Assembly: GCF_007860105.1 (NCBI RefSeq)
Contig: NZ_SJPU01000001.1
Span: 1,066,090 to 1,130,089, forward strand
Direction of reading: 5' to 3'
DNA: 64,000 bases
Origin: Allorhodopirellula heiligendammensis
Lineage (GTDB): Bacteria > Planctomycetota > Planctomycetia > Pirellulales > Pirellulaceae
The notes below the pieces were generated by a model that was given only the letters and a program-made list of their open reading frames with translations, was not told where the DNA came from and did not search any database. Both the position numbers and the translations under genes were made by a program. How positions within the stretch are numbered: position 1 is the first letter of the stretch; each line of letters begins with the position of its first letter. Below, piece after piece: positions 49,139-61,353 of the stretch.

Positions 49139-50425
49139 TCACGCTGTCAATGCAGCGGCTTCAGACGGGGGACGCAACATGAACGATAGCCCGATCGCGA
49201 GCAACCCAAAACAAACGGCGACAACTCCTACCAGCCAATACTGCGTCAATGGTCCTCCCGGATATACCTCGCCGATGATCGAACCGGAGATGAGTGGACC
49301 GATACCGGTTGCGAAATGTGACATTGCCGTATTGAGACTCGTGAACGCTCCCCGAGACTTTGGGTCGGCTGAACGCAGCATCATCGCTTGTGCCGGCACC
49401 ATCCTGCTCGATGCAACGCACATGAAGAGTGTCGTGACGAGGACCGCAATGACTAAGCTAACCGGTGGTAGGTTGGTGATCACTAAGGTCATCACGATCG
49501 CCGCGCCTGCCGCACCAGCAAAGACTCGGCGGGGCCCGAAATGATCAGTCAACCAGCCACTGAAGTTCATCACAAAGAGTGAAAAGATTCCGGCGACGGC
49601 GTAGACAAGTGGCAGATTACCTCGAGATAATCCGCAGTTCGCCTGCAGGTACGGCGCAATGTAGGGAACGATCATGAAGGTTCCGAATATCATCGTGATC
49701 ATGAAGGCGAATGACCAAAGGTGGTTCGCTTGGCGAGCGACATGTACCAACGTCTTCATGGGATGGACATGTAAATCGCGATGGGTCCCGGGGAGCGACG
49801 GTAGCAGCAGCATCGTTGCGGCGAGTACCAACGTCCCGAATATTGCGATCGCAATGAAGGGAGTGCCGAAGTGATGCGAGGCATTGGCGAGCGCTAAACC
49901 GATCGGAAGCCCGATGGTGGACGCAAACGCGAATGATGAAGTCACGGCGCCGATCGCACGGCCGCGACGTTGCTCTGGAATCAATTCGACGATAAATGCC
50001 ATTACCGTCGAAGCCACGATGCCACCGCATAATCCCGACAAGCCCCGAGCGATCAGCAAATGTGTGTAACTTGGCGCGAGACCGCAGTACCAGGTCGCTG
50101 CTAGAAAACCGACGAACGACCACAGCATCGTTTTTCTTCGATCAAATCGGTCAATCACGGTCGACGCGATGATCCCTGTGATCGTCGCACAGATGCCGTA
50201 CGCCGAGACGATATAACCGAACTGCCGAGGCGTGATGGAGAGTTCGTGACGCAACTGGTCCCCCAGCGGCATCACAATCACGAAATCCAAGATGTGCGTG
50301 AAGTTAATTGCAGCAAGCAACAGCACGAGCTTCCACTCCGCAGAGGTCAGAGGACTGGGCTTCGATTTCGGCTCCACAGAGGGCTCCAGCAGGCGACATG
50401 TGATAACAGGCGAGCGGTAGATCAA
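49139..50425 (-). CDS. Major facilitator superfamily transporter
   Basis: 428 aa with 12 predicted membrane helices and a cytoplasmic N-terminus of about 30 residues. The MFS loop 2-3 signature appears as STVIDRFDRRKTML and the loop 8-9 version as GWLTDHFGPRR. FIVELIPEQRRGRAIGAV is typical of the drug/sugar efflux DHA1 group. It lies downstream of the AGE-type epimerase, separated by 324 bp, so membership in the sialic-acid locus is possible but not shown. Substrate cannot be assigned. Confidence 0.92.
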   Translation of the reverse strand: MIYRSPVITCRLLEPSVEPKSKPSPLTSAEWKLVLLLAAINFTHILDFVIVMPLGDQLRHELSITPRQFGYIVSAYGICATITGIIASTVIDRFDRRKTMLWSFVGFLAATWYCGLAPSYTHLLIARGLSGLCGGIVASTVMAFIVELIPEQRRGRAIGAVTSSFAFASTIGLPIGLALANASHHFGTPFIAIAIFGTLVLAATMLLLPSLPGTHRDLHVHPMKTLVHVARQANHLWSFAFMITMIFGTFMIVPYIAPYLQANCGLSRGNLPLVYAVAGIFSLFVMNFSGWLTDHFGPRRVFAGAAGAAIVMTLVITNLPPVSLVIAVLVTTLFMCVASSRMVPAQAMMLRSADPKSRGAFTSLNTAMSHFATGIGPLISGSIIGEVYPGGPLTQYWLVGVVAVCFGLLAIGLSFMLRPPSEAAALTA

Positions 50426-50749: not shown

Positions 50750-51940
50750 TTAGTGCGTTACCCTTTGTTTCGGCGAGTCTGCGAGCATTTTCCAGCACAT
50801 CAGCTGCATGCGCGGCATGTGGAAGGGGCCCTTCCAGAGGTTGCCTTTGAGCATCGAGCTGATGCTGCCGTCTCGGTGCAGATAACCGAACCACTCGCCG
50901 TGCACTGGATCAGGGAAATGGTCATACGCCCAGTCGTGGATCATTTGGTGCCAGGTGGCATATTTCGATTCACCGGTGAGTTGATGGGCGAGCAATGTGG
51001 CGATGATCGTTTCATTCTGCGGCCACCAGAATTTCATGTCGTGCCAGTATTCCTGGATGGGCCGACCCTTCACGTCGACAAAGTATAGGATTCCCCCATG
51101 CTCCTGGTCCCAACCCCGTTGCCACATCCAGTCAAGCATCTGGCAGCCAGTTCGAATGAGTGAGGCATCCCCGCGAAGCTGTCCTTCCTGCATGATGAAC
51201 CAAGCACCCTCGATCGCATGACCGGGATTGAGCAACCGTCCGTCGAAATGGTCGACCAAATCACCCGTCGGGCTCACCGTCTCCATGACGCATTGGATAT
51301 CTTCCTTGAAATGATAGTGCTTGATGTCGTCAATACTTCGATTAATCCACGCGTCGGCATCGGGCAGCCCGATGGACTCGCGGAGCTCCTGGGCGGTCAC
51401 AAGGGCAATCATTGGAAATCCAATGCCCCGGGTCGGTCGCGTCGAGGTGAATTTTGGCTCGACGCCCTGGGGATTCAGGTTGTGGTTTATAAATCGTTGA
51501 AATGTGCGGCTCGCTTTTTCGGCGTATTGGTCCTCGCCGGTCGCCTTGAAAAGTTCACCGTAGGCAATCGCTGCAAAGCTCTCCGAGAATGCATAGCGGC
51601 GTTTGCGGATTGGCTTTCCGTCACGGGTTACATGGAACCACATCCGACCATCTGATGAATCGAAACAATGATCGTCGAGAAATCGAGCGCCGTGCTTCGC
51701 CAGTTCCAGCCATTCTTCACGGGGTTCGACGTTGTTGTATAGCTCACCCAGTAGCCAGGTGAATCGGCCCTGCTGCCAGACGCCCTTGTCGGTATCGATC
51801 ACGGCACCGTCGCGATCGAGCGACATCATGAAACCTCCGTGCTCGCGATCGACGCAGTGATTGATCCAAAACGGCAAAGTGTCGTTCAGCAATCCATCGC
51901 GATAGGTGGCAAGCAGTTCATTCCGCCGAGTTTCATCCAT
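50750..51940 (-). CDS. N-acylglucosamine 2-epimerase (AGE/RnBP type)
   Basis: 396 aa from the ATG at 51940 (MDETRRNELL); an earlier ATG at 52024 would overlap the symporter stop and adds 28 unlikely residues. The (alpha/alpha)6 barrel family is recognised by LPFWINHCVDREHGGFMMSLDRDG, WQQGRFTWLLGELYN, LNPGHAIEGAWFIMQEG (conserved His and Glu) and WHQMIHDWAYDHFPDPVHGEWFGYLHRDG. In this context the reaction is ManNAc to GlcNAc, directly after N-acetylneuraminate lyase. It replaces the phosphorylating NanK/NanE route. Cytoplasmic, last of the compact nanA-symporter-epimerase unit. Confidence 0.93.
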   Translation of the reverse strand: MDETRRNELLATYRDGLLNDTLPFWINHCVDREHGGFMMSLDRDGAVIDTDKGVWQQGRFTWLLGELYNNVEPREEWLELAKHGARFLDDHCFDSSDGRMWFHVTRDGKPIRKRRYAFSESFAAIAYGELFKATGEDQYAEKASRTFQRFINHNLNPQGVEPKFTSTRPTRGIGFPMIALVTAQELRESIGLPDADAWINRSIDDIKHYHFKEDIQCVMETVSPTGDLVDHFDGRLLNPGHAIEGAWFIMQEGQLRGDASLIRTGCQMLDWMWQRGWDQEHGGILYFVDVKGRPIQEYWHDMKFWWPQNETIIATLLAHQLTGESKYATWHQMIHDWAYDHFPDPVHGEWFGYLHRDGSISSMLKGNLWKGPFHMPRMQLMCWKMLADSPKQRVTH

Positions 51941-52020
51941 TTCGGTCTGCTGTAGTCTAAGTTTTGTCGTAGTCCACGTTGCTGGTCTGCAGATGTTTGT
52001 CTTCCAACTGGCAGACTGCG

Positions 52021-54597
52021 TCACGCTTTCGGTAATGTATGAATGGTCAGCCCACTGAGGTCACCAGTGGGCTGCTGTGAGATGAGACTCGTGAAGTAAC
52101 CGACGACCAAGCATGTTGTGATTCCGCATGTCGTATACAGGTAGCCGTTAACTGCAGTGAATTTCCACAGGCTAAACATCACCGCGGCCCCGACCAACGC
52201 TCCCGTCATTGCTCCGGTGGAATTGGCTCGGATTGTTGTACCACCTAGCACGAACAGCCCACCGAGCACACCCATGAACAAGCCGATCACGACCAGAAAG
52301 GTGTCGAATAACGATTTGATGTCCGGGTTGACAAACACGAGTCCCAGTAGCGTCCCAATCACTCCCATCACGAAGGTCAGTCCGCGAGCGGCATTGAGGT
52401 AGCCATGCTTGGACTTACAAATATGGAATGGTCGCAGGAAGTCAGTCACCAAAGCCGTCGCGGTGGAGTTCATGCTGGTCGAAACAGTCGACTGGGCTGC
52501 TGCAAACACACCCGCGACGACCAGCCCGGCCAAACCTATGGGCATTTCGCGAGCGATGAAATAGGGAAATACTTGATCCGTCGAAATCGTCGGGTCCAAC
52601 CGGCCGGGATTGGATTGATAGTACGCGAATAGTGCCGTGCCGATGCCGAAAAACAGCAGTGTCGCCGGAATCGTCAGCGCGGCATTCGTCCAGATCGAGC
52701 GGGCTGCCAGATTCTGATCGGCGGTTGTCATGTAACGCTGCACGACAGCTTGGTCGGCAGTGTACGAAGACAGGTTCTGTCCGATCGCTCCAACAATAAT
52801 CACCCACAGTGCGATCTGGGCGTTTGTCGGGCTGAGGTGCAAGTTGGCGATTCGAAATTTATTGGCATCCTCTGCTGCAGTCAGAAAACCGCTTACACCA
52901 CCCTCTGTTCCCGTCACCAAAAGAAAGATCGCCAGCATCGCCCCACCGAACAGTACGACCGTCTGGATGGTATCCGTCCAGATCACTGCTTCGACGCCAC
53001 CCATCGTACAGTAAAGGATGCTGAGCACGCCCATCAGCAACACGGACTGCGCAGGACTCAAGGGGGTTGCGACCGCCATCGCTAATCCAGTCAGCGACAT
53101 GACAACCGCCATGCGAAAGAGGTGAAAGAGCGTGAAGCTGGCACTTCCGAATAGTCGTACTGGACGACTGAATCGCTTCTCCAGATATTCATACGCACTC
53201 GTGGCATCGATCCGGCGGAAGAACGGCATAGCGACGTACACCGCAACAATGGCGACTACTGGAATCGTGAAGTTGCCAATCGAATACACCCAGTCCTGCG
53301 CGTAAGACTTCGATGGAATACCGGTGAAGGTTAGCGAGCTCAGCATCGTGGCAAAGATGCTGCAACCAGCAGCCCACCATGGAATATTGCTACCGCCGCG
53401 AAAAAAGTCGTCGGTGTTCTTGCTCTTTCTAGCAAAGTATACGCCGACGCCAACCATCGACGTTAGGTACACGAAGAGGACAACGTAATTGACGACGCCA
53501 AAGTCGTGGCTGGCGCGATTGACGGCAACGCGATAGACGTTCGGCGTTCGCGTTCGGGGGCGAATCTCGCCAGTCGGCACGATGATATCATGGCCCCATT
53601 GAACCGCAGTTGTCGTCACCTGGGTGACGGGATTCACTCCCGCGGAAACCCAGGTATCGGTGATGGTGTGGTAGGCTGCTGAATCATGGCCGAAGCCTGG
53701 ATGGTCATCCTGCAGTTCGTTGCTTTGGAAGAATAGATCCCCCGTCGATCCGCCGAGCACGAGCACATGACTCTGGCCGTATTTGATGCTGGTGCCGGCC
53801 ATCCAACATCGAGGTGCGTCGCTTCGTTGCCGCCACACACCGGTGCTTGGATTGAACTCCCACACATCGCGGAGAAATTCAAAGCTGGTTTGATCTTCCG
53901 CTGGCCCATTCTGTCGCCGCCCGCTGATGACGTACACGCAATCGTCATATCCATTGTGCTGACTGACGGTCAGGTTCAATGCTCGCGGAGGTCCGGGCCA
54001 AGCTGGCAACTCTTTCCAAACGAATTCCTCAGTCGCTGTCTGCGCGGACAGATCCAGCGACCAGAAGTTTGTCATGGCGGTGTCTAGCGACTGGCCACTT
54101 TGCCCTCCAGCAAGATAGATTACCTCGCCGATGATTGTTGCGGCAGTGAATGCGCACGGTTTGGGAAGCGACGGATATTCTCTCCTCGTGATCTGTTCGG
54201 ATGCCGGATCCCAGCTCAGCAAGAACACGTCGTCAAATGTCTCTTCGGCATTGTTTCCACCGATGCATACCACGCCTTCGCTGGTAGAGACTGACGCCCC
54301 ATATGCGATTGTACGATGGAGAGTTCCGCCGTCTTTCCAGGCATAGTCGTCACCGTCTTTAGTCATCACGTAAATGCGGTCATGCCAGACCTTTTCGCTC
54401 TCCCAGATAGGCTTGGGAAAGTTCGCACCTCCAGCGACGATCATGGTATCGTTGTGAATTCCTACATACGGCCCCGCCAAGCCCAGCTTGTCGGGCATGG
54501 GGGGCAATTCACTCCATGACAACAAGTCCTCTGCCGTTGCGAGTGCGGATGTCGTGAAGGCTGCCACGATGAGCAGGATCGGTAGAAATCGTTTCAT
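52021..54597 (-). CDS. Kelch mutarotase - sodium:solute symporter fusion
   Basis: 858 aa from the ATG at 54597. A signal peptide (1-21) leads to a Kelch propeller (about 30-360) of the NanM/cyclically-permuted mutarotase type: [60 protein letters not shown]. From about residue 372 comes a sodium:solute symporter with roughly 13 helices: [63 protein letters not shown], and [26 protein letters not shown]. NanM converts sialic-acid anomers, so the fusion couples anomer conversion outside to import of sialic acid. Between nanA and the epimerase gene. Confidence 0.92.
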
Positions 54598-54647
54598 ATT
54601 CTCTATCGTCTTGAGGGCCACACATTTCCGTGCGTCGTCGGCTGCGA

Positions 54648-55571
54648 TTAAGGGTTCAGCGACAGGCTGGCGGCGTGTCCGAAGTCCATTCCAATGGCGC
54701 TCAACTCAGAACGCAGGGAGTCGGACTGGGATGGGGAAAGCCGGCCCTGCGGCAATCGACAACCACCGACATGGAACCCCTGCATTTCAAGGATGGCTTT
54801 CATGGCGGGGTGAAACGGGTAGCGCCCAATCGTCCGAATCATCTCGATTGAAAGAGACTGCCCTTTTCGAGCCTGGGCAAAATCCCCAGCTTCGAACGCG
54901 GCCATGATTTGGAGATACAACGGAGCCGCGATGTTGTAGGTGCTGCCGATACCGGCACGGGCACCGGTTGCCAATGCGCCCAACAGCATTTCGTCGCATC
55001 CCCAGACGACATCGAAGCGGCCTCCCTCCAATTCCATGCAATGCTGAAATTCGAAGAGTTTGGTGTCGGTGTATTTCAGACCGACTAAGTTGGGAATCTG
55101 GTCACCGCCTCTCTGCAAGAAATCGGCCATCTCAATCGTCGAACCGGTCAATGCAGGAATGTGGTAGTAATAGAATGGCAGGTCGGGAGCGCCGCTGGCC
55201 AACTCCGCCATGCAGTCCACCAATGCCGCCACGCTGGACACTTTGAAGTAGGACGGGCACGTAGCCGAGATCACGTCTGCACCGACTGCCTGTGCATGGC
55301 TGGCGAGTTGCCGCGCTTCGTGCACACTGTTGTGACCAACTTGCACAATAACGGGGACTCGACCGGCGGTCGCCTCTACGTATGCTTCGGCAACCTTCCG
55401 CCGTTCCTCACTCGTCAATGACATGCCCTCGCCAGTGCTGCCGCAGACGTATAATCCGGTGATGCCATTGCGCAACAGGTCTTCAACCATCGGACCGATC
55501 GCGCTGAGGTTCAAGTCTCCGTGCGGATCCAGCGGTGTGTAGGTTGCCGCAATCAGACCATTCAGCTTCAT
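54648..55571 (-). CDS. nanA: N-acetylneuraminate lyase
   Basis: 307 aa, DHDPS/NAL TIM-barrel family. Cleaves Neu5Ac to ManNAc and pyruvate through a Schiff base. Seen: carboxylate-binding GSTGEG (44-49), Tyr136 in [11 protein letters not shown] and Schiff-base Lys166 in VGLKYTDT. The YYHIPALTG form and context (sialidases, Kelch-symporter, AGE epimerase) favour NAL over dihydrodipicolinate synthase. Cytoplasmic. It starts 50 bp before the symporter gene and follows a 190-bp spacer with a REP-like palindrome. Confidence 0.94.
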
Positions 55572-55763: not shown

Positions 55764-56051
55764 TTAAAACGGCTTCCTATGCCGGGTCACTTCATGAAGA
55801 TCGGCCTTGGAACCATGACCCGAACGTGTACCAAAAAAGTTGTCGAACTGCGAGTATTTCAGGCCATGATCTGCCAGAGCATTCAGCGATGGAGTGCGGG
55901 CTTCGCCTCCAAGGCAACCGAGGTCCGAAAAGCCGAGATGGTGGGCGACGATCAGTAGGATTGCGGGCCGGTCGTCACCCTGCGTCTGCACACCCGCCAG
56001 CGTCGCGAAGAGGAAGCAAATTGGGGCGATCAAGAGCGAGTGCCGCTTCAT
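55764..56051 (-). pseudogene. Truncated sulfatase with mutated metal site
   Basis: 95 aa. A good signal peptide (1-25) is followed by a sulfatase start, RPAILLIVAHHLGFSDLGCLGGEARTP: the universal metal-binding Asp-Asp is His-His (AHHLG). The frame continues to LKYSQFDNFFG and then runs into unrelated residues and a stop, before the formylglycine site. No sulfatase function is possible. Its ATG still overlaps the sialidase stop (ATGA), so it was once a coupled operon member, consistent with an original role in desulfating sialylated or mucin-like glycans. Confidence 0.85.
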
Positions 56052-57274
56052 GGCTGCTGTGCGTCGTGAGCGCGTTCGTTTGTCATCAGCTGTGACTGTG
56101 TCACGACCACAAAGACGATCGATTCGTACGGACTGCGTTGTCCCGCTTCAAACAGCACCCCGTATCGAATTGCATCGAGTCGAACCATGTCGCTATAGGC
56201 GGCAGGCCCAGCATATATCAGCGGACCATCCTGCCATGTGCTGGTCTCATCGGTTGAGAATCGAACCCGTAAATCACTCCGTCCCTTACCGCTGGGACCG
56301 TTCTCGTCAGGACCTGAGAACAGAATTAAATCGTGTGCGTCACCGTTGAGCGTTGACGCGGCGCGCAACAATGAACATTGGACGACAGGCGGATCGAGAA
56401 TCTCCGGTGAAGGCTGGAAAAACTGGTACGCCGAGACCGACGAGGGGTCGAACGACGCGCCTGCGTCGCTGCTGAACGCTTCGCCACGTGAGCCCCGAGC
56501 TGCTCCGTTTTGGTCTCGGGTGTTGAAGTACAGTCGACCGTCGTTCAGTTCCACAACTGCCGTCTCGTTCGCATGCAGATCATCTTCGTAGGTGTCATCA
56601 ACTGCTCCGATTCGCCAGGACTTGCCGTGGTCGTCGCTCAGAATCGCATGCGCACCGTTGGCACCTTTGTCCGCCCCATCGTCACCGAGGCGATGGTCGC
56701 AGGGAACGACCAAACGGCCTTTGTTCAACCCGCGTTGCAATTGGATCGCGTGAACCGGCCCCGGTGCGTACCATCCCCATTCCGGCTTTTTGACAGTGTC
56801 GGTCACCTCAACTCGTTCCGCCCAAGTATTGCCATGATCATCGCTGTAGGTTACGAACACGCGATCGTTCTCGACTGTGAACGGCAGCCAGATACGACCC
56901 GCATGCTCAGGATCGAGATGGTCAACCACGGGCGTCGGATTGCCCACACTGATCTCGCGTGACGGATCCTTGTAGAAGCTACGAAAGGCATCGCTCGGCT
57001 GCACTATTTCAATCCCGCCCCATGTCTTGCCCTGATCACTCGATCGTTTCAGTACAAGATCAATCTCGCTTGCATCACCTCCTTGCCGAGCTTCGCAGAA
57101 TGCCAACAGATCGCCATTAGCGGCGGTAACGATGGCCGGAATACGGAATACTTTATACCCGTCGCTACCGCTACGAAAAACCGTGACAGGATCGAGCGGT
57201 ACACTCGTCTCCTGTCCGCATGCTATGCCACAGCAAAGTGCCAGGCACACGGCTAAAGTTTTCTGGGTGATCAT
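56048..57274 (-). CDS. Exo-alpha-sialidase
   Basis: 408 aa from the ATG at 57274, preceded by GGAG at 6 bp; the frame is open 60 bp further. Signal peptide to about residue 21. Six-bladed GH33-type propeller: FRIP motif in YKVFRIPAIVT with the arginine that holds the sialic-acid carboxylate, FCEARQGGDASEIDLVLKRS, and Asp boxes SSDQGKTWGG, YSDDHGNTWAE and LSDDHGKSWRIG. A second arginine block STRDQ-like appears as YFNTRDQNG. Releases terminal sialic acid outside the cytoplasm. Coupled to the sulfatase remnant downstream. Confidence 0.93.
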   Translation of the reverse strand: MITQKTLAVCLALCCGIACGQETSVPLDPVTVFRSGSDGYKVFRIPAIVTAANGDLLAFCEARQGGDASEIDLVLKRSSDQGKTWGGIEIVQPSDAFRSFYKDPSREISVGNPTPVVDHLDPEHAGRIWLPFTVENDRVFVTYSDDHGNTWAERVEVTDTVKKPEWGWYAPGPVHAIQLQRGLNKGRLVVPCDHRLGDDGADKGANGAHAILSDDHGKSWRIGAVDDTYEDDLHANETAVVELNDGRLYFNTRDQNGAARGSRGEAFSSDAGASFDPSSVSAYQFFQPSPEILDPPVVQCSLLRAASTLNGDAHDLILFSGPDENGPSGKGRSDLRVRFSTDETSTWQDGPLIYAGPAAYSDMVRLDAIRYGVLFEAGQRSPYESIVFVVVTQSQLMTNERAHDAQQP

Positions 57275-57645
57275 TGTGGTCTCCAAGGGGATGTCGAAGG
57301 GACGCTCGAATTTCAGGAAGGTCTCGCGTCTCAATATACAGTCTGCGTCTTGCTTGTCGGTGAGATCAGGGACCCTCGTTGCTGAGAGGTGCAGGTGCTA
57401 TTCCTGCGTTCTGGAACATGTCGAGGTGCTGCAATTAAAAAGCCAAGCCGCGTGCAGGATTTGGTTCGGTATTCCTGCAGTTCAGCGACGACGGTTGTGC
57501 TGTGGGCTCTTCCGATAGTCGGGTCGCAAATCTCTGGCTGGAAACGCTATCGCTGACCAACGCCACGTCATTGGAATGGATTCTTGCAATATCCATGCGG
57601 AAACCGCCAGCGAACGATTCCGCTTGGGAGCCCCTACGACGCCGA
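57275..57645. other. Intergenic region between the two sialidase genes
   Basis: About 370 bp on the leading side of the second sialidase. Likely contains a promoter for the sialidase-nanA half of the locus. No palindrome related to the candidate GntR operator was seen here. Confidence 0.45.
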
Positions 57646-60600
57646 TCAATTGTCCTGGGTGGAGAATGGCGATGCAGGCAATCCTTCGCTGTTGACGAGA
57701 TTGACGGGGGGATCAAGATACGGTAGCCATGCATATCGAACATGGATCGGCCGAGTGACCTTGGGGCTGGAGACGGAAATTGTAGCGTAGCTGCAGGGCG
57801 TGGCGACTGCAGGATGGAAGATACCGTCCTGGCCGCACACTTCGAAGTAGCGGAGAGCATCGCCATCCGATGAAGTCAGATCCTTTCCGGATTGCTTGAA
57901 TGAGACGATCATCGTGTTTCCTCTGCGCTCTGCACGCTCAAAGAGCGGCCCCGAATAGGTCTCATGTATATTTGATAAGTAAGTCGTGCCCAGTGCCAGC
58001 CTTGCGAGCCGTTCGCCTACCGGCTTTTTCAGCTTCGGATGAACATCGGTCGGGTGCCCGGTGTCAATCGTAACCGCCATGCCGATGTTGTTGATTCGGT
58101 CCAGAGATCGACGTTGTCCATCGCGAAAGAGTGGCCAGTCAGGTCGGTCGATTGCCGGCAGTTGGACGAACAGGAACGGGAAGTCACCTTGATTCCAGTG
58201 CTGGCGCCACTCGCGGATTAAAACAGGGAATAGTTTCTCGTGTTGACGTACCCGCTCCGGTGTTTCGGCGTTTGATTCACCCTGATACCAAATTGCCCCT
58301 CGAATCGCGTAAGGGATCAGTGGTTCAATTCCCGCAGACCATAGAAAACCAGGCTTGAAGGGGTGGTTGGGGCCGAGCTGATCCCCGGGAACACGCGCAC
58401 CTGATTGGATTGCTGCCAACAGGTTCTGTTTGCCTCGCAGGGGGCAGAACTCGCCGAGCACTTCGCTATGAAGCCAATTTCCAGCGACAAGGTTATTCAA
58501 TTCAACATCCCGCTCCATCGCTTCCAGAGGTATCCATGATTCTGCCGGAGAGCCGCCGACCGCAGGGCAGATCAAACCAACCGGCACCTTGAGTTGACGT
58601 TGTAGATACCTACCAAAGTACCAGGCAACAGCAGAGAACTTGCGGGCTGCGTTGACCGACGCGACCGCCCACTGCCCGTCAATGAATGTATTGGGTGCCA
58701 GTCGCGAGAGATCGGCAGGCAAATAGTTCTGGGGTAGGCCGCGCGGTCCGTCGGTCAGGTCGAGCAGACGTAGGCTATCGTTAGCTTGACCGGCGAGCAT
58801 ATCCAGTTCGCTTTGGCCACTGTTCGACTGATCCAACCGCCACTCCATATTCGACTGTCCGGCGCACACCCAGACTTCCCCAATGAGTACATCCTGAAAG
58901 GAAACCTGCTCATCGCCCGATTGAACGGCAAGTGTGGTAGGAACATGCGACGCCTTCTGAGACGCAAAACGGACCTGCCATTGACCATCGTCGCCTGCCG
59001 TCGTGGTGAGGGCGTCATCGCCAAGGGTCACGGTGACGTTGCTGTTCGCCAAGGCCTTACCCCATACCGGCAACGGTGCCTCCGCCTGCAGCACCATGTG
59101 ACTGCCAAACACTTGAGGAAGTTCCAGGTTTGTCGAACTGGCGGCCGTCGGCTCGCTGGCATCCACGTGCTCCAAGTCGCTGTTGTGCGAACCATCGAGG
59201 ATTTCAATGAGTGGAATCCGTTGGAACGTCAGGTGAGCCTGACTGCCTTCGTACAGGATTCCGACGGTGTGGTCATCGATCATGGACATGCACGAGTACC
59301 CGGCCCCATTATCTTCGTCGAGGAGAAGTCGATGTTGCTTCGGCCACGTCCTACCGCCATCGGAGGAGGCCTTGATCGTCATATGGTTGCGACCGTGCAG
59401 ACTATCGGGATTGGAGAACAGCACCCATCCTCCAAGATCGCTGCCAGCTTCTTGGTCGGCACCAATGAGGCTGGCCATGCACGCACCAGGTTCGATTAAT
59501 GAGATTTCGGACGAGGGGTGCTGTTGCCAGGTTTTTCCCATGTCGCGGGTCGTCATCACAACACGCGACGACGCACGGTTATACCGACAGTTCAGCATCA
59601 ACACGCCTGGTTCCGTCTCGATGACCTGAGCCTCCGTAGTGTCATCGAAGGCGCCCGTGCCTGTTTGCCAAGTTGACCCGTGGTCCTTGGAGTAAATGAT
59701 CGTTGAACGCGGAAGTCGCTGCTGACGAGGATGGTCCTGGTACTGGGCGGCGAATACGATCGTACCATCTTGCATCGTGATGCCTTTGCCAGGTCCTTGC
59801 AGGAGGAGGCTCCAGTCTGGATGTTTCACCTGATCGGTGATGTTGATTGGCTCTGACCAAGTGACACCTTCGTCGTCACTGCGGACCAATATCAATTGCC
59901 CTGTCTCCTCGGGAGTGAGCCCTGGTCCAGAGCCATGCCATCCTCGATCGCCATGACTCCATAACCCCGCCACCCAAATGCTATTCGTGCTGCGATCTAC
60001 TAGCACCGCTGGGTCGCCAATGCCGTCGTATTTCCAGTCGGGGTTGTCGCCCATGTCCATAATGGCTTTCATGGGCTCCCATGTACGACCTCCATCGACT
60101 GAACGCGACATGCCAACATCAATGTCTCCCGGGAGATCACTGCCGCGCCGTCTGCGAATATCATAAACTGCGATTAATGTGCCTCTGTTCGTGGTGGCAA
60201 GTCCTGGGATGCGATAAGTGTGGGCGCCGTCATCTCCGCGTTGTCGCAATGCGATCCCCATCCGCTGGCTCGAAACTGGCGCTTCTAGCTCAATCGTTTG
60301 CCCGTTTGAAAAGGTGACTTGTTCAATGGCTGCGCCGACTCGCAGATCGATGTTAGCGTCCGGTTTGAGCTGGCAACGAAGCCAGACAATGTTTTCGCCT
60401 GCCTTCAGTTCCTGTGACACTTGGAGTGCTTTGATGGCAGGCTTGACGTGCTCTGCCGTGGAAACGGGGGCGCCGTCGGCAACCTGCAGTGTTTGGATTT
60501 GTTCGATGCCTTCGAGCCGAGCTCGTATTTCCGTCAGAGAGATTGGATCCACGACTCCGGTTGCCATTATCTTCAGCTTTGCCAGTGGACAGGTTTCGGC

Positions 60601-61224
60601 ACCGACGAGTGCTGGCAGCGAACAGGGCACCACCTCGACACTGGCAATCTGTTGTCGTTCGGCGGGTCCGATGAGAATATCATCGATCAAGATCCCAGCA
60701 TTTGGAGGACTTTTGCAAGTAATGCGGAGCCGCTCAATCTTATCGTCATTGAGCGGCACGGTGACTTGGCTGAGAAACGCTCGGCCTACGCGAACGCTGG
60801 CGTCACCCTCGTAGATTTCCTGCCAACCATCCCCGGAGTTCTGCTCGATGCGAAACGAGAAGGGCGGGCGACTCGTCCAGCGCTCTGCCCTGAACGAAAG
60901 CACTCCGGAGGTGTCCACCGCATCGTCGAGATGCAGCGTGACAACAGACGTTTCATCGCCGGTCAGGTGCAGGCATTGCTGACCGGTGCTGGCATGCTTG
61001 GCATCAACGATGGCGACTCCGGCCTGCGATGTCCACTTGCCGACCTCGGTGTTGAGCTGCTCGAATCGGCCCGGTTTCGCATCTTCAAAGCTGGTGGATG
61101 CGGTCGAGGACGAACGCTCCTCGGCAATTCCGGACTCCCTAGCAAAGGAGACGTCATGGAGCGTACTGAGGACGCAGAGAGAGATCCCGATCACGCGGGG
61201 CAGAAAAGCATGGTAGAACGTCAT
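57646..61224 (-). CDS. Sialidase - sialate O-acetylesterase fusion
   Basis: 1192 aa from the ATG at 61224 (a GTG at 61236 also opens the frame). Signal peptide, then a beta-sandwich of about 130 residues (FEDAKPGRFEQL... LRITCKSPPNAGILIDDI), a second small beta domain, and a sialidase propeller at about 325-680 with YRIPGLATTNRGTLIAVYDIR and five Asp boxes (SVDGGRTWEP, SDDEGVTWSE, SKDHGSTWQT, TRDMGKTWQQ, SSDGGRTWPK). Residues 700-1190 are an SGNH sialate-O-acetylesterase: nucleophile in VCAGQSNMEW, AVGGSPAESW, and WYQGESNAE, with D-x-H in HPTDVHPK. One secreted polypeptide could remove O-acetyl groups and cleave sialic acid. First large enzyme of the locus. Confidence 0.93.
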   Translation of the reverse strand: MTFYHAFLPRVIGISLCVLSTLHDVSFARESGIAEERSSSTASTSFEDAKPGRFEQLNTEVGKWTSQAGVAIVDAKHASTGQQCLHLTGDETSVVTLHLDDAVDTSGVLSFRAERWTSRPPFSFRIEQNSGDGWQEIYEGDASVRVGRAFLSQVTVPLNDDKIERLRITCKSPPNAGILIDDILIGPAERQQIASVEVVPCSLPALVGAETCPLAKLKIMATGVVDPISLTEIRARLEGIEQIQTLQVADGAPVSTAEHVKPAIKALQVSQELKAGENIVWLRCQLKPDANIDLRVGAAIEQVTFSNGQTIELEAPVSSQRMGIALRQRGDDGAHTYRIPGLATTNRGTLIAVYDIRRRRGSDLPGDIDVGMSRSVDGGRTWEPMKAIMDMGDNPDWKYDGIGDPAVLVDRSTNSIWVAGLWSHGDRGWHGSGPGLTPEETGQLILVRSDDEGVTWSEPINITDQVKHPDWSLLLQGPGKGITMQDGTIVFAAQYQDHPRQQRLPRSTIIYSKDHGSTWQTGTGAFDDTTEAQVIETEPGVLMLNCRYNRASSRVVMTTRDMGKTWQQHPSSEISLIEPGACMASLIGADQEAGSDLGGWVLFSNPDSLHGRNHMTIKASSDGGRTWPKQHRLLLDEDNGAGYSCMSMIDDHTVGILYEGSQAHLTFQRIPLIEILDGSHNSDLEHVDASEPTAASSTNLELPQVFGSHMVLQAEAPLPVWGKALANSNVTVTLGDDALTTTAGDDGQWQVRFASQKASHVPTTLAVQSGDEQVSFQDVLIGEVWVCAGQSNMEWRLDQSNSGQSELDMLAGQANDSLRLLDLTDGPRGLPQNYLPADLSRLAPNTFIDGQWAVASVNAARKFSAVAWYFGRYLQRQLKVPVGLICPAVGGSPAESWIPLEAMERDVELNNLVAGNWLHSEVLGEFCPLRGKQNLLAAIQSGARVPGDQLGPNHPFKPGFLWSAGIEPLIPYAIRGAIWYQGESNAETPERVRQHEKLFPVLIREWRQHWNQGDFPFLFVQLPAIDRPDWPLFRDGQRRSLDRINNIGMAVTIDTGHPTDVHPKLKKPVGERLARLALGTTYLSNIHETYSGPLFERAERRGNTMIVSFKQSGKDLTSSDGDALRYFEVCGQDGIFHPAVATPCSYATISVSSPKVTRPIHVRYAWLPYLDPPVNLVNSEGLPASPFSTQDN

Positions 61225-61353
61225 GTCTTGGCTCACAGGATCGAGTGCAAGTATCTAGGATTGGGGCGTATTCTACAGCAGGCCTATCTTCAGTTGGCGC
61301 GAGCTTGCGTGCTCTCGGCCGACCGAAGACTTGGCTGAGCAAAATCTGTGGAC

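Follow-up and report, generated by a model that had tools for sequence, protein, structure and literature searches.

Can a single protein both convert sialic acid from one anomer to the other and import it into the cell? The question is raised by an open reading frame in the window (the whole stretch of 64,000 nucleotides from Allorhodopirellula heiligendammensis that was analysed), in which the original prediction had placed a mutarotase-type propeller and a full SSS permease in a single polypeptide. The two do share one ORF, as Pfam matches both PF24996 (NANM; 117.6 bits, cut-off 45) and PF00474 (SSF; 124.5 bits, cut-off 22.8) within it, and the NCBIfam model TIGR00813 (sss) scores 189.1 bits, above its cut-off of 184. 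The limits first given, 52021-54597, are exact, and the strand to be added to them is the minus strand: the ORF runs from an ATG at 54597 to a stop at 52021, while the plus strand of the same interval contains many stops. An alternative GTG start at 54621 is possible. The gene and the parts of its product are as follows.

52021..54597, minus strand: whole propeller-SSS fusion gene, one ORF of 858 amino acids from ATG
54532..54597, minus strand: signal-peptide-like N-terminus, residues 1-22 (sequence reading and model helix 4-17)
53521..54531, minus strand: residues 23-359, NanM-type Kelch propeller with cyclically permuted blades (PF24996, TIGR03548, permuted NanM alignment, fold matches)
53566..53568, minus strand: Glu344, corresponding to Glu228 of the E. 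coli NanM precursor (permuted alignment)
53548..53550, minus strand: Arg350, corresponding to Arg234 of the E. coli NanM precursor (permuted alignment)
52024..53496, minus strand: SSS symporter domain, first helix at 368 (PF00474; 5nv9; 5nva)
53338..53340, minus strand: Ser420, corresponding to SiaT Ser60, carboxylate (alignment)
53113..53115, minus strand: Arg495, corresponding to SiaT Arg135, carboxylate salt bridge (alignment)
52972..52974, minus strand: Asp542, corresponding to SiaT Asp182 (alignment)

A join produced by chance, by a frameshift or by assembly is ruled out by the uninterrupted ORF and by the many full-length fused homologues in independent genomes, single-contig chromosomes among them (L082 on CP036432.1, L096 on CP043547.1). 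Nor is the fusion unique to the window's genome, given fused homologues across Planctomycetota and other phyla. In particular, among the best 80 of at least 572 propeller relatives on GTDB contigs, 71 are fused to an SSS domain, counting one with a broken frame (L086) and some that end at a contig edge within the SSS part; the other nine comprise two that end at a contig edge (L127 and L136), one remnant (L102) and six that stand alone. The fused relatives within these best 80 of at least 572 come mostly from MAGs and, by record title, belong to Planctomycetota, Verrucomicrobiota, Kiritimatiellae, Hydrogenedentota and Omnitrophota. The view that the mutarotase is normally a separate protein holds for E. 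coli NanM and fails for the permuted family of Planctomycetota, which occupies 30 places in 27 of 294 genomes, with 24 fused, 4 alone and 2 apparently cut by a contig end. Surveys starting from the pump scored at most eight candidates per genome. With Proteus mirabilis SiaT as the query, 20 of the 21 places scoring at least 333 bits in 199 Planctomycetota genomes are fused (the next score being 274), and all 15 places of at least 283 bits in a set of 194 genomes gathered around a verrucomicrobial handle lie in frames of 726-1151 amino acids. Propeller similarity at E 1e-3 was found in 13 of the 14 verrucomicrobial-survey loci fetched, L247 being the one without it. Residue conservation was read from an alignment of 62 rows, that is, the window's protein and 61 of the 71 fused loci; L086, L095, L098, L106, L110, L114, L126, L143 and L148 were omitted as broken, cut or near-duplicate, and L090 without particular reason.

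The propeller half is well supported, by family and by residues, as a putative NanM-type mutarotase. With the permutation undone, 86 of 319 residues are identical to E. coli NanM (YjhT, 2uvk), a member of the same Kelch-propeller mutarotase family, and Kelch fold matches span model residues ~29-361. The catalytic pair of NanM, which we take to be Glu and Arg (E209/R215 in mature NanM numbering), aligns with Glu344 and Arg350. A lack of active-site residues had been set beforehand as a possible refutation; Glu344 and Arg350 are present, and both catalytic residues are found in 62/62 aligned fused proteins. Among 20 fused proteins of the window's own order, its own included, the Arg occurs in every one and the Glu in 19, the last having Gln. 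The two proteins differ in that NanM is unpermuted and separate, whereas the blades of the window's propeller are cyclically permuted and joined to an SSS domain, so that Glu344 and Arg350, unlike their counterparts in NanM, come close to the end of the propeller. Specifically, in the AlphaFold2 model they lie on short strands 24 and 18 residues ahead of the first SSS helix (368), with one further strand (354-359) between Arg350 and that helix. NanM (2uvk) is not among the best 50 rows from Foldseek or VIA-align, where the permuted blades may break a linear alignment. The cyclically-permuted mutarotase family TIGR03548 has the same blade order as the window's propeller and is matched over almost its entire model (E 5e-46); this model describes a propeller only, whereas the window's protein carries the SSS domain too and scores 157.3 bits, below the curated cut-off of 243.2. 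At E 1e-20 no second permuted-mutarotase match was found in the window's genome, the fusion being the only one.

The other half resembles the Na+/sialic acid symporter SiaT of Proteus mirabilis, which is its nearest solved relative both by sequence (5nv9, E 2.8e-104) and, among SSS structures, by fold (Foldseek and VIA-align on the model); on 5nva the model of the fusion gives Z 49.4 and rmsd 1.9 over 470 aligned residues with 40% identity. The likeness covers the fold of the whole SSS domain, the carboxylate-binding residues and Asp182, which we take to be the Na3 site. Leu59, Ser60, Thr63, Arg135, Asp182 and Ser342 of SiaT are present in 62/62 fused proteins, so that the carboxylate-binding Ser60, Thr63 and Arg135 are all conserved, and Ala56 is present in 59/62. 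SiaT, however, is a stand-alone symporter with a chain of 496 residues, whereas the window's pump is fused and has five SiaT contacts replaced: Thr58 by Met418, Phe78 by Tyr438, Gln82 by Asn442, Phe243 by Ala604 and Gln250 by Ser611. Across the 62 fused proteins, Met takes the place of Thr58 in 55, Asn that of Gln82 in 55, Tyr that of Phe78 in 46 and Ser that of Gln250 in 43, and Thr is found at position 58 in 4/4 stand-alone SiaT-type proteins compared. In the portion of PMC5931594 available, SiaT binds beta-Neu5Ac, its Thr58 contacts the anomeric hydroxyl and a Thr58Ala exchange doubles uptake. The replaced contacts may mean that the window's pump differs in affinity or anomer preference. 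Ser60 and Arg135 alone are insufficient to establish a sialic-acid substrate, since both are present too in many unfused SSS proteins from other clades. In two quick trees, the SSS half of the window's protein shares a clade with SiaT (SH-aLRT 97 in the first, 98 in the second), inside which fall 3 unfused relatives, while 12 of 15 unfused proteins in the first tree and 11 of 14 in the second stay outside, together with all the paralogues used from the window's own genome.

The neighbourhood points to the same substrate. The gene was predicted to sit between nanA and an epimerase gene, and profile matches place both next to it on the minus strand. They are listed here with further genes.

49139-50425: MFS gene, downstream of the fusion
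50750..52024, minus strand: N-acylglucosamine 2-epimerase (AGE, NanE-II type), directly downstream of the fusion (Pfam/NCBIfam)
54648..55571, minus strand: N-acetylneuraminate lyase-like gene (NanA; DHDPS family), upstream of the fusion with a 50 bp gap (Pfam/NCBIfam)
56048..57334, minus strand: gene for a sialidase-like protein with an FRIP motif and four Asp boxes, upstream of the fusion
57646..61236, minus strand: 1196-aa protein that unites a sialidase-like domain (YRIP, four Asp boxes) with a SASA sialate O-acetylesterase domain, upstream of the fusion

The best equivalog models match the lyase-like and epimerase genes strongly, yet without reaching the curated cut-offs (172.5 of 281 for NanA and 382.3 of 600 for AGE). 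An onward path to central metabolism in the window's genome appears plausible from two NagB-family places above their curated cut-off, the NagA-family places all lying below theirs. The arrangement recalls the Bacteroides fragilis type of nan pathway, in which the transporter is presumably a separate protein, unlike the window's fusion. Both combine a lyase with an AGE-type 2-epimerase, the B. fragilis enzymes being NanL and NanE-II (PMC10017367, in the part available). Across relatives, at least one NanA-, AGE- or sialidase-like ORF lies near the fusion in 23/35 fused loci, compared with 2/22 loci of other SSS proteins in genomes from the same search (flanks up to 8 kb; thresholds 100 bits for NanA, 100 bits for AGE and 60 bits for sialidase; the fused L069 and L070 are outside the 35). 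Specifically, NanA-, AGE- and sialidase-like ORFs occur at 19, 14 and 14 of the fused loci and at 0, 1 and 1 of the controls. The remaining 12 of the 35 have no such neighbours; in 10 of these 12 genomes a NanA-like gene is encoded elsewhere (E <=1e-30), scoring above 300 bits in seven. Residues and neighbourhood together make sialic acid a well-supported candidate substrate of the fusion.

On these grounds we consider it likely that the protein is a single-polypeptide sialic-acid uptake module, in which a periplasmic mutarotase propeller is anchored on a SiaT-type Na+/sialic acid symporter. The N-terminus appears signal-like, as far as sequence reading and a model helix (4-17) of low confidence (block pLDDT 54-60) can indicate, and would export the propeller to the periplasm, where it would be anchored at the outer face of the symporter. 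Retaining sialidases would free alpha-Neu5Ac, the propeller would accelerate its conversion to the beta form beside the pump, and the SSS domain would take up the beta anomer with Na+; NanA and the 2-epimerase would then carry the imported sialic acid via ManNAc to GlcNAc. The direction of this conversion, alpha to beta, is the one described for sialic-acid mutarotases in the available part of PMC10017367, which also presents E. coli NanM as a separate soluble periplasmic protein. The AlphaFold2 model of the fusion, built on the 62-sequence alignment, has a mean pLDDT of 89.1 and a pTM of 0.87, and so high a pTM for two domains suggests a fixed mutual arrangement of propeller and pump. Mutarotation tethered next to the pump is the best-supported reading, and a direct hand-over of the anomer from one to the other may be envisaged from it.

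It is also conceivable that the propeller chiefly captures substrate, docks or stabilises the pump, with catalysis secondary or absent. A natural experiment that bears on this is found on a plasmid of Pseudoalteromonas sp. HL-AS2, where a degenerate fused propeller lies beside a separate intact mutarotase.

L267:8053-10491: fused SSS protein without the catalytic pair in its propeller
L267:552-1712: separate intact permuted mutarotase of the nan cluster

The fused gene is flanked on one side by a regulator named NanR and on the other by genes named NanE, ROK and NagB; its product appears in the record only as 'sodium:solute symporter', so that the fusion matters for annotation as well. Its SSS part is 57.5% identical to that of the window and groups inside the fused clade in the SSS tree, beside a verrucomicrobial protein. 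The N-terminal ~310 residues form a degenerate propeller, with a partial TIGR03548 match of 22.5 bits; the Glu/Arg catalytic pair was not found there, and this propeller seems catalytically dead, judging from its residues. The separate mutarotase ~6 kb off scores 229 bits and has both residues with E. coli-like Glu...Arg spacing. In other words, a propeller domain can persist after catalysis moves out, as a capture or docking role would have it. Another 20 SSS proteins that carry N-terminal extensions, that of Pseudoalteromonas included, divide evenly: 10 keep the pair and in 10 it was not seen. Eight of the latter come from the verrucomicrobial survey, and L226 likewise has an extension in which the pair was not seen. 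In those eight, however, Ser stands in place of Thr63 and Leu59 is replaced too, and they may be pumps for another substrate. They form one clade together with L226, whereas the four of the ten distant pair-keeping proteins that were placed in the tree retain Leu59 and Thr63, which suggests that in the clade of the eight and L226 a change of substrate went along with the loss of mutarotase function, perhaps in one event. The presence of Glu and Arg throughout the 62 aligned fused proteins is hard to account for without catalysis, and a mainly non-catalytic propeller is, in our judgement, improbable for the window's protein.

Still more doubtful is the same architecture with a different substrate, such as another nonulosonic acid (Kdn, legionaminic or pseudaminic acid). 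Environmental bacteria encounter many acidic sugars, and the window's pump does depart from SiaT at the Thr58, Phe78, Gln82, Phe243 and Gln250 positions. Against this stand the sialidase- and sialate esterase-like genes that adjoin the fusion, the nan cluster around the Pseudoalteromonas relative, and the adjoining N-acylglucosamine 2-epimerase, which implies an N-acylmannosamine product that Kdn does not give; we regard another substrate as very unlikely.

The preferred reading, an uptake module for sialic acid, leaves room for more than one origin. Stand-alone SiaT is nested among fused proteins in both quick trees of the SSS half, the second of which omitted two rows with long branches and 11 fused ones intended as near-duplicates, and took in four of the ten distant pair-keeping proteins. 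In the propeller tree, built without L226, a lone mutarotase (L099) falls amid fused ones with SH-aLRT 98. A constraint that held 72 fused-type rows together, with the four stand-alone SiaT and 15 other SSS proteins outside and 11 rows free, cost 6.46 log units and was not rejected (AU p 0.417); the nesting of SiaT therefore does not fix the direction of change. The fusion may have come first and been split later, or it may have originated alongside SiaT. Taken jointly, these observations allow a more ambitious and rather tentative reading, which we think possible while leaning against it: propeller and pump would be one machine, in which the permutation sets the catalytic residues right by the first SSS helix and the anomer is delivered into the outward-facing pump; the fused lineage would have altered anomer recognition at the Thr58 position, and the SiaT that stands alone in gut and pathogenic bacteria would be a reduced descendant of this environmental fusion.

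The role of sialate mutarotases in uptake has so far been difficult to demonstrate. An E. coli nanM mutant reportedly loses at most 20% of its growth rate, even with the alpha form abundant (PMC3658417, in the part available). A one-to-one fusion retained across several phyla is an evolutionary argument that conversion of the anomer goes hand in hand with its import. Moreover, the joined form permits testing whether the mutarotase feeds the pump directly, the fusion being a construct whose two activities are separable by single mutations. No paper describing a propeller-SSS fusion was found among open-licence PMC articles, as far as their available text goes. The parts being known, the fusion may represent a new, widespread variant relative to the searchable open-licence papers, and domain databases may already list the architecture.

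Some minor observations concern the relatives. L247, L249, L255, L256, L257 and L259 are verrucomicrobial-survey SSS proteins with N-terminal extensions of ~180-275 residues, which have no Pfam match in five of the six and a weak NANM match in L257. Among the matches listed, relatives of the window's genome include two propellers without a symporter by AGE and sialidase-like genes (L059:8073-9167 and L079:7965-8852) and a C-terminal symporter piece on its own (L068:7935-8816), all likely remnants. A Magnetovibrio MAG encodes a stand-alone permuted mutarotase (L158:3561-4814) with a very near tree neighbour, L067, whose genome belongs to the same family as the window's; this closeness would reflect transfer or MAG contamination. 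L185:452-3661 is a row of three genes, for a NanA-like protein, an unfused permuted mutarotase and an MFS transporter; here the mutarotase is alone where the adjoining transporter belongs to a different family. Other domain combinations also occur. L061:7947-11738 (1264 aa) joins a 3-keto-disaccharide hydrolase domain to the NanM propeller and the SSS domain, and L077:7998-10487 (830 aa) combines a NanM propeller with a BNR sialidase-like domain, that is, a mutarotase fused to a releasing-type enzyme and not to a pump. Finally, the planctomycete SSS symporters L222:2858-5524, L223:3959-6400 and L224:3845-6301 have N-terminal HEAT-repeat matches; N-terminal fusions to SSS proteins are therefore not confined to mutarotases.
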